DNA of 40,273 nt from Paludibacter sp. (GTDB taxonomy: Bacteria; Bacteroidota; Bacteroidia; Bacteroidales; Paludibacteraceae): positions 1-40,273 of the forward strand of contig JADGPS010000026.1 in assembly GCA_017882285.1 (NCBI GenBank), written 5' to 3'. A program made the position numbers and the translations under genes. The notes below the pieces were generated by a model. The model saw nothing but the letters and a program-made list of their open reading frames with translations. It ran no database searches and had not been told where the DNA came from. Shown here piece after piece: positions 203 to 10,075 of the stretch. The stretch's first letter is position 1; every line of letters begins with the position of its first letter.

Positions 203-484
203 TTACGCCCGTTCCTGTTCCTGTATACAGACGTTTATAAAGTGAATCATACAAATCGTGAAGAATGAATTTGATTATACTGAAATAGTAGTTTAATATT
301 GTTGCAAACAAATAACCATTAACCCCTCGTTTGCAATTAGTGGGAATAAGAGAGAAATTAATGGTGGGCAAATGCAATCCGGGATAATAGTTATCAACAG
401 CTAACCTAAAAGCAGATTGATAATCAGATTATTATCCTGTTCATAACTTTGTTGAAAAGTTGTTTGCAAAAACAGGGTAAAATA
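203..484. other. Gene-free spacer between CRISPR repeat and ncRNA promoter
   Basis: AT-rich sequence with no convincing gene on either strand. The first ~25 nt are the potential guide segment of the lone Cas12a repeat. An imperfect self-complementary stretch is visible around 412-440 (AGATTGATAATCAGATTATTAT). No further repeat, tRNA or promoter was recognised. Confidence 0.5.
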
Positions 485-516
485 CTTGCAAATCTATGTT
501 CAATACATTATATTTG
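485..516 (+). promoter_or_regulatory. Bacteroidota-type promoter of the large ncRNA
   Basis: A -7 box TATATTTG (509-516) matches the Bacteroidota consensus TAnnTTTG exactly. A -33 box CTTG (485-488) lies 20 nt upstream, within the usual 19-21. Transcription would begin about 522, right at the UUCG hairpin that opens the ncRNA. No reading frame starts here. Confidence 0.75.
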
Positions 517-1897
517 CACCATGAGTTTCGACTCAAGGCATGAAATGAAATGTTGAAACGTTCTTTGAAATACTGATACAAACATCAAAAAAAGTCAATA
601 GTTAAATATTTGAACCCAAATTCAGAGGTGCAAATCTGTTTTATGTAAAGAACGAACTGACTATTAAAACATAGTTATCTCCGTTATTGTATACGCAAGT
701 GTGCAATGAGATGTATAGCAATGTAAATAGTTTTACGGTCTCTGGCAAAAACAGAATTCCCTGTGAGTTAGACTCTATAAATATAATTATGGTGCGTTTG
801 AATAAAACGTAACCCTGTCTCTCTGAGACAGGAAAGCCGGGTAGTCGGGATGGGAATTCTATAAAAGTAATTCGTTACTTATATTCGTTTCCGGCCACAA
901 AAGTAGAAACAGCAATGTTTTGAACTTGTGACTAACAGTTTCAGGCGAGCAGTACAAAAAAATTAAAAGTCGCGGCAGTTCAGTGTTTAATTATATAAAT
1001 GAGTTTATAATTGAACGAATTTTATTTTTTGGTAATACTACCAACAGAGTAAAACAGTCAAAAGTAAATGAGTTGTATACGTATAAGCTTAATAGCAGTA
1101 TTAAGATTGTACGGGAAAGATGAAGCAAACAAAATCAGTCGGTCTGAATGCAAAAAATTTGACCGGGACACCCGAAGAACCGAAATCCCCATAACACGGG
1201 ACTGAAGTTTAACCGGTGTGAAACGGAAAAAATTGCCGGCAAGTGACAGCGGATGGGTTTCCATTCACAGTTGCTAAGCCGTAAAAGGCGTCAGAGTTGA
1301 TAACGGTTTTCATGGTAATTCTACGATAATGAAGGGATCTGCAAAGAAACACTCATTATCCGGATTCGAAGCTATGCAAATAGTGGAAAGCCTTGAACGT
1401 CGGAAATGATAGCGAACAGCATTATCCGAAAATACTTCCATTGGTCAAACAATGAAAGTATATATACAGCATTTCAATTCCTATTGACCGGTGATTTGAG
1501 TTCTTTGAAGAGAAGTGATTTAACTTTAAATCCGTAAAAGGAAGATGAGTTGAAACACGTGCTTTGCGCCAACAGGTTTAAGAATTAACTGAGAAATCAG
1601 TTGAAACAGACACCTGATACGATCAGAAAATTGTTAACAAGTAGTTTTGTAAAAAACTGCATACAACAAGCCTGATTCAGTAAAGTAGAAAACGAATCAA
1701 AGACAGAGATGGCTGCAATACGCTATCCGGTGCAGGAGCGAATAGAAAGACTGGTAAAACAGTCCGGAAAGTCAATCTGAAGCGGAAAGATACAGCAGCT
1801 GTAAACAAGGTAAAACCCAGTTTATTAAAACATATCCAAATCAAACTCATGGTGGTTAATCAGTATACAAAGATATCAACAATCTATTTCGTGTTCA

Positions 1898-1925
1898 AAG
1901 AGGGTGCTGTTAAAGGCACCCTCTT
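1898..1925 (+). terminator. First intrinsic terminator of the ncRNA
   Basis: A perfect 10-bp stem, AAGAGGGTGC / GCACCCTCTT, with an 8-nt loop TGTTAAAG. It is GC-rich at the apex and followed by TACTGTTTAAAA. The U-tract is weak, which may explain the second terminator directly behind it. Confidence 0.75.
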
Positions 1926-1934
1926 ACTGTTTAA

Positions 1935-1964
1935 AAAAGGTCGGACTAATAATCTGACCTTTTC
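1935..1964 (+). terminator. Second intrinsic terminator of the ncRNA
   Basis: Stem AAAAGGTC (1935-1942) / GACCTTTT (1956-1963) followed by CTATTTC. Because it is symmetric with A- and T-runs on both sides it could act in both directions. Its position 10 nt after the first stem makes a tandem terminator. Confidence 0.7.
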
Positions 1965-2073
1965 TATTTCAATAAAAACCAGTTGAATCTCAACAAATCA
2001 ATGTTGAGCATTGTTTTTAAGCTGACATAGTCTGGAGACTACCCCGAACCACGGTCGCAAGTTTACAGAGTAA

Positions 2074-6104: not shown

Positions 6105-6135
6105 TTTGTAAATTCGCCGAAAAGCAGTACTTTTG
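6105..6135 (+). promoter_or_regulatory. Promoter of SRP RNA
   Basis: -33 TTTG (6105-6108), 19-nt spacer, -7 TACTTTTG (6128-6135), an exact TAnnTTTG match. Predicted start about 6140 coincides with the 5' end of the SRP RNA helix. It likely also drives the tRNA downstream. Confidence 0.8.
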
Positions 6136-6138
6136 TGC

Positions 6139-6237
6139 CGGGTAAGTCCTACACGACCAGCTCCTTTTGAACTCCCCCAGGGCCTGACGGCAGCAAGGGT
6201 AGAAAGTTGTAGCGGTGCGATGTAGGGGGCTTACCCA
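6139..6237 (+). ncRNA. ffs: Bacterial small signal recognition particle RNA (4.5S type)
   Basis: About 99 nt forming one long hairpin. The closing helix is GGGTAAGTCC (6140-6149) with GGGGGCTTACCC (6224-6235). The apical domain contains CCCAGGGCC-TGAC-GGCAGCAAGGG, the conserved asymmetric internal loop (AGCA) bound by Ffh. The tetraloop is UGAC, a URRC type instead of the GGAA type of most proteobacteria. The RNA pairs with Ffh and FtsY for co-translational membrane targeting. It is preceded by a consensus promoter and followed after 3 nt by tRNA-Thr, so the two are probably one precursor. Confidence 0.93.
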
Positions 6238-6240
6238 CTT

Positions 6241-6314
6241 GCCTCTTTAGCTCAGTTGGCCAGAGCACGTGATTTGTAATCTCGGGGTCGTTGGTTCGAA
6301 TCCGACAAGAGGCT
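6241..6314 (+). tRNA. tRNA-Thr (anticodon UGU)
   Basis: A 74-nt cloverleaf. Acceptor GCCTCTT / AAGAGGC with U discriminator, D-arm AGCTCAGTTGGCCAGAGC, anticodon loop TTTGTAA reading threonine ACA-family codons, T-arm with GTTCGAATC. The anticodon stem CGTGA / TCTCG contains one U-U mismatch at its centre. No CCA is encoded. It lies 3 nt after the SRP RNA and just before a strong terminator. Confidence 0.95.
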
Positions 6315-6321
6315 CAAAGCG

Positions 6322-9576: not shown

Positions 9577-9704
9577 AGTAAAAACTATTTGACGATGAAT
9601 AAACCGTTAAATAGCTTTCGGAAATAAACATAACAAAAGCAAAAGGTAATTATTGCGGATGTCCCGTCGCTTTTTCCTCGAAAGCTTCTGAAAATAAGTT
9701 ATGA

Positions 9705-9985
9705 TTGGCAGGTCTTCTGACTTACTCCCGTTATTGAACGCCTTCCCGATTTAGTCGAATGGTTAATTTGTTAATCTGTGATTCGTTTTTTAAACTATCA
9801 TCTGTCAACTATCAACTGTCAACTGAAATTACCAGTGGCAAAAGTGTTGTTCAAAACGTTTATTAAATAACTGTCAACTGTGAATTATTAACTGTCAATT
9901 ATTTAATGGAGCTTACAGCAGCGGGACTGTACAGGATTTTCACCTGTTTCTCTTTTAATTCAATCCTCAAAAAAACGAAAATTGA
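9705..9985 (-). promoter_or_regulatory. Cobalamin riboswitch upstream of btuB
   Basis: On the minus strand it runs from about 9985 down to 9705. Conserved parts: the 5' block CAGGTGAAAATCCTGTACAG followed by TCCCGCTGCTGTAAGCTCC (9909-9946), GCCACTGGT (9831-9839), then CGGGAGTAAGTCAG and the B12 box AGACCTGCC (9707-9730). Adenosyl- or methylcobalamin binding would switch off btuB-btuG expression. Peripheral loops are enlarged by low-complexity ACTGTCAACT repeats on both sides of the CCACTG block (9800-9826 and 9870-9899), making the element unusually long. The core appears intact. Confidence 0.9.
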
Positions 9986-10075
9986 AACCAAAGCGATACA
10001 AAAGTAATGTATATTTTTCAAAGAAGTATCCAAATCGTAGAATTATTCCTACATCAGAATATTAATGTTTATTTA

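Follow-up and report, generated by a model that had tools for sequence, protein, structure and literature searches.

The 40,273-nt stretch of Paludibacter DNA that was analysed (hereafter the window) carries at 509-1965, on its forward strand, a unit bounded by a -33/-7 promoter of Bacteroidota type and by tandem terminators, with no conserved reading frame, and on the evidence of sequence comparison it is almost certain that this unit encodes a real, new, large structured RNA. The sequence-only reading of the window had proposed a large and possibly new RNA class here, and this is supported by homologues across the genus, covariation, the lack of any retained frame and negative Rfam searches; the boxA-like signal, leader-trailer helix, conserved upstream element and length variation described below go beyond that reading. 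Very few bacterial RNA classes of comparable size and complexity have been described, their functions being mostly open, and we know of no giant RNA class in the Bacteroidota. The Paludibacter RNA, larger than most of the known large classes, is a new candidate for this short list of giant bacterial RNAs and brings with it a testable, rRNA-derived mechanism of assembly. Taking the observations as a whole, we favor, as the probable explanation, a free-standing chromosomal structured-RNA gene whose transcription is assisted by boxA, whose product is closed by leader-trailer pairing and which would act in trans as a scaffold.

Homologues were found by blastn across one genus, Paludibacter, with the unit matched from promoter to terminator in related genomes; the matched records that bear names are MAGs of Paludibacter and of Bacteroidales. 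A covariance model of the 5' module (R1) detected the RNA in 19 of 48 Paludibacter-genus genomes, a count that excludes one genome (G020) whose 56-nt match covers the terminator only, and had no match among 392 other Bacteroidales genomes. A model of the conserved core (R2) found it in 16 of the 48, two carriers (G017 and G068) being without the core; the sole R2 match elsewhere, in another family (G187), lies inside a protein gene and was rejected as a chance hit. The RNA is absent from a complete genome taken as P. propionicigenes (G016) by blastn, R1 and R2 alike. Eighteen homologues are readable (662-1731 nt), and 12 of these are close and full-length. Despite 61-86% identity the close homologues, from 12 species, are all 1413-1429 nt long, a narrow range which suggests that the fold is constrained in its entirety. 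Most homologues are about 1.4 kb and all share hairpin 1, hairpin 2, the boxA-like element and the terminator around a variable interior, so that total length is 662 nt in G068, 743 in G028, 1163 in both G026 and G069, and 1731 in G027. These natural variants of 0.66-1.73 kb provide ready-made minimal and expanded forms for structural work.

The borders of the unit are conserved. Twenty nucleotides separate the -33 TTG from the -7 box TATATTTG, both elements are kept in all 18 aligned homologues, and the promoter sequence TATATTTGCA is invariant among them. The -7 box with its -33 spacing, the UUCG hairpin at the predicted 5' end and the tandem terminators had all been picked out in the sequence-only reading and are confirmed here; one homologue rebuilds the hairpin, and the first terminator is present in 18 of 18. 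The span 485-1965 given in that reading holds for the unit and proved slightly narrow, as a conserved upstream promoter element extends back to about 388. The conserved TGTTNAWAA-like repeats of this element suggest a shared regulator. In the same genome a similar triple array of 9-mers, TGTTGAAAA/TGTTGATAA, is located 5' of mraZ (L099, 1501-1570), and from the similarity of the arrays it is possible that one regulator is common to the RNA gene and mraZ. We also considered the upstream array as a set of DnaA boxes and rejected this, the dnaA region of P. propionicigenes being without a cluster of such boxes.

Long, non-coding and covarying in its homologues, the predicted transcript has the general properties of a large structured bacterial ncRNA. 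The abundance of local hairpins seen at first inspection was borne out by folding and by covariation: (i) the consensus folding energy is -380 as against -176±10 in 32 column-shuffled and refolded alignments, 20 sd beyond the null, and the same test gave 94 pairs with double compensatory change versus 28±5 in the shuffles; (ii) a separately made alignment yielded a structure of 32 helices and 246 pairs, 90 of them changed on both sides versus 36.9±4.2 in 500 shuffles, a number reached in none of the 500 and compared with 27-33 in slid controls in which partners were moved by 1-3 columns; (iii) in windowed, RNAz-like consensus folding most windows scored z between -3 and -9; and (iv) when an R-scape-like test was restricted to the structure, 6 of 396 pairs were significant with 0.05 expected, while the all-pairs form of the test, its power limited by the 12 sequences used in both, returned no single significant pair. 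For the GCAA-capped hairpin (686-707), a GCAA or GUAA loop could also be read by eye in the divergent homologues. The positions of these features are collected in the table.

Table. Features of the RNA gene (window coordinates)
Feature	Position	Strand	Basis or remarks
Upstream promoter element	388..472	+	TTATCAACA, then an array of TGTTNAWAA-like 9-mers; alignment of 18 homologues
Promoter, Bacteroidota type	486..516	+	-33 TTG 486-488, -7 TATATTTG 509-516; read directly
Large structured RNA, ~1.4 kb	519..1926	+	Homologues, covariation, non-coding indel pattern; predicted start ~519-523
Hairpin 1, GAGU-UUCG-ACUC	523..534	+	Kept in 18/18; rebuilt as AAGC-UUAG-GCUU in G028
Hairpin 2, 537-541 with 550-554	537..554	+	U-A to C-G compensatory change in G022
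boxA-like element CGNUCUUUGA	559..568	+	Match to rRNA boxA sequences
Leader strand	562..578	+	Pairs with 1858-1874; directly overlaps boxA
Long 5' domain arm, 619-653 with 738-769	619..769	+	27 pairs, 12 changed on both sides (helix 1)
GCAA-capped hairpin	686..707	+	3 covarying pairs (helix 4)
Conserved core	771..862	+	Hairpins GCGUUU/AAACGU and CCUGUCU/AGACAGG, then GCCGGGUAGUCGGGA; model R2
Strongly covarying hairpin	1327..1358	+	8/11 pairs changed on both sides (helix 19)
Covarying arm, 1621-1627 with 1671-1677	1621..1677	+	6/7 pairs changed on both sides (helix 26)
Covarying 3' hairpin	1800..1826	+	7/10 pairs changed on both sides (helix 31)
Trailer strand	1858..1874	+	Duplex with 562-578, -14.2 kcal/mol; in 18/18 with compensatory changes
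Terminator 1	1898..1925	+	11-bp stem, 4 covarying pairs, 97% of cells paired (helix 32)
Terminator 2	~1936..1964	+	Read directly; only in some homologues

Two features of the RNA recall the way in which rRNA precursors are made. The first is the boxA-like element. All 18 readable homologues have CGNTCTTTGAA near the 5' end, UCUUUGAA lies at a constant distance from the promoter in every one of them, and the boxA-like CGNUCUUUGAA is common to all, one having UG instead of CG. In P. propionicigenes (as G016) each of the three rRNA operons has two copies of CGATCTTTGA, one in the 16S leader and one immediately ahead of the 23S gene, and the rRNA leader of the carrier G017 contains it as well; the 10-mer of the RNA is therefore identical to the rRNA boxA of its own group, where boxA is assigned by position in the rRNA operons. 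The gamma-proteobacterial boxA consensus is GYTCTTTAANA (PMC5725501). In E. coli pre-rRNA the antitermination complex is recruited through boxA, which is both necessary and sufficient for this step, and the precursor is closed by a helix between leader and trailer whose formation may be promoted by tethering (PMC10250234). The second feature is a comparable leader-trailer helix. A duplex of 11-16 bp joins the two ends in all 18 RNAs across their full range of lengths, its trailer strand lies 76-81 nt before the end of the unit however long the RNA is, and independent compensatory changes have occurred, from A-U to U-A in G026, G069 and G028 (one lineage) and from U-A to G-C in G068. An alternative 5'-3' pairing, the perfect 12-nt complement of 517-528 with 1843-1854, is strong in 9 of the 12 close homologues; it was rejected as it is weak or absent in most divergent homologues and would cross the better-supported leader-trailer helix.

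Given these observations, we think it fairly likely that boxA functions in this RNA and that the leader-trailer helix closes the molecule. In our working model the gene would be transcribed from its own promoter and the nascent RNA would present the boxA-like element soon after initiation. By analogy with rRNA, this element may recruit NusB/NusE (S10), which would let the polymerase continue over more than 1 kb of untranslated sequence and assist the folding of the RNA. When the 3' end has been transcribed, the leader strand with its boxA would pair with the trailer just before the terminator and close the molecule; this order of folding and the stability of the RNA are both part of the model. 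The finished RNA, with some 30 covarying helices and an interior that differs between lineages, would most likely act in trans as a scaffold, alone, self-associated or bound by proteins as an RNP. The build thus looks like that of pre-16S and pre-23S rRNA, with boxA near the 5' end, boxA-assisted transcription and then leader-trailer closure of a long untranslated RNA around a variable interior. Unlike pre-rRNA, the Paludibacter RNA is not ribosomal and its boxA strand itself takes part in closure; in E. coli the partner of the trailer is a separate strand, boxC (PMC10250234). A more far-reaching idea, which we put forward tentatively and as rather less assured than its parts, is that of a non-ribosomal RNA class built by rRNA-style logic, in which boxA-dependent antitermination and co-transcriptional folding would come first and completion of the 3' end would then let leader and trailer pair and bury the boxA strand, giving a large RNA particle with a cellular role of its own. 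If true, boxA on a non-ribosomal RNA would extend the role of Nus factors to long untranslated RNAs in general.

The same structured RNA could also be produced by ordinary transcription, with UCUUUGA serving only as one half of the closing helix and no functional boxA. Since the boxA strand takes part in that helix, pairing alone could conserve part of boxA, and for the seven bases complementary to the trailer co-conservation by pairing would be enough. The CG upstream of them lies outside the helix, however, and pairing explains neither its conservation nor why the 10-mer CGATCTTTGA exactly matches the two boxA sites in the rRNA operons of P. propionicigenes as well as the G017 rRNA leader; moreover, the element is placed where a boxA is expected, shortly after the start. 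We therefore consider the pairing-only explanation unlikely, and a boxA that functions remains the reading we favor.

Less likely again, and in our view improbable, is that the unit is mobile or selfish, the RNA element moving in one piece from promoter element to terminator. Its borders of similarity are sharp, it adjoins different genes in most species, and its carriers are scattered on a radical SAM gene tree in a way that requires at least nine gains or losses, a count that rests on one gene tree rather than a species tree and in which some absences may be assembly gaps. (A pyrophosphatase gene tried as the marker proved to be two paralogues, and the radical SAM gene was used instead.) This scatter indicates that the RNA gene is accessory, through loss or transfer. 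Gene order turns over fast generally, however: neighbours are shared in 5 of 136 pairs for the RNA and in 7 of 136 for the ordinary radical SAM gene, so that the turnover around the RNA gives no sign of unusual mobility. The neighbours differ between species and are ordinary chromosomal genes, the RNA is present in single copy, no transposase, integrase or reverse transcriptase was seen near it, and phage, plasmid and viral-contig collections held no homologue of it. By the neighbour comparison it moves no more than ordinary genes do. A linked partner protein gene was likewise sought in the neighbourhoods of the homologues, and none was found.

A remote member of a known large class (OLE, ROOL, GOLLD or raiA) that the models had missed would share the size range, the GNRA and UUCG loops and the stand-alone gene of the Paludibacter RNA, and we regard this as very improbable. 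Rfam 15 gave no gathering-level match in 485-1965 or in the RNA regions of divergent homologues, none of the four classes matched 485-1965 even at a permissive threshold, and the weak matches to other families at that threshold were at chance level; by the curated models the RNA is not a member of OLE, GOLLD or ROOL. ROOL and GOLLD resemble it as very large, stand-alone structured ncRNAs of unknown role with length-variable regions, but they are located in phages and prophages near tRNA islands (PMC12286853), whereas the Paludibacter RNA is chromosomal, is confined to Paludibacter in the genomes searched and matches neither model. OLE, an RNA of about 600 nt from the Bacillota with known protein partners (PMC9723947), is similarly a large ornate ncRNA conserved within one bacterial group, but the Paludibacter RNA has no sequence or model match to it.

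Finally, a long unit without an ORF (the longest start-to-stop sense ORF is 46 codons, in keeping with the earlier statement that none reaches 60) might be what is left of a protein-coding gene, or the long untranslated leader of a gene next to it. Both are highly improbable: a decayed gene is ruled out because only 8 of 254 indels among the 12 full-length homologues are divisible by three, and covariation is strong, terminators close the unit and the downstream genes vary in identity and strand. A retained reading frame, which the sequence-only reading had named as the mark of a decayed gene, was sought in the homologues and none was seen, nor do stop-free stretches line up across the 12.

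Several other elements lie in the window. One intact Cas12a-type (type V-A) CRISPR repeat, GTCTAAACGACTTTTTAAATTTCTACTATTGTAGAT, is present at 167-202 and is probably an orphan mini-array or the end of an array; the sequence before it (1-145) is shared with the end of another contig (G000:C55, L110), where the repeat recurs. Exact type V-A repeats occur in six genomes of the genus survey, five of which also carry the RNA, small numbers that may reflect chance, and a link between the RNA and the repeat was rejected as the arrays of other carriers are on other contigs. A MITE-like repeat at 2080-2220 contains a perfect inverted repeat of 13 bp and recurs near the V-A repeats in L110. A DUF805 RNA (RF03081) at 2249-2318 lies 5' of a YbjQ-family gene (2332-2664) and not of a DUF805 gene, a Bacteroidales small SRP RNA at 6133-6315 directly adjoins a tRNA-Thr gene, and a cobalamin riboswitch at 9690-10007 (minus strand) is located upstream of a TonB-dependent receptor gene.
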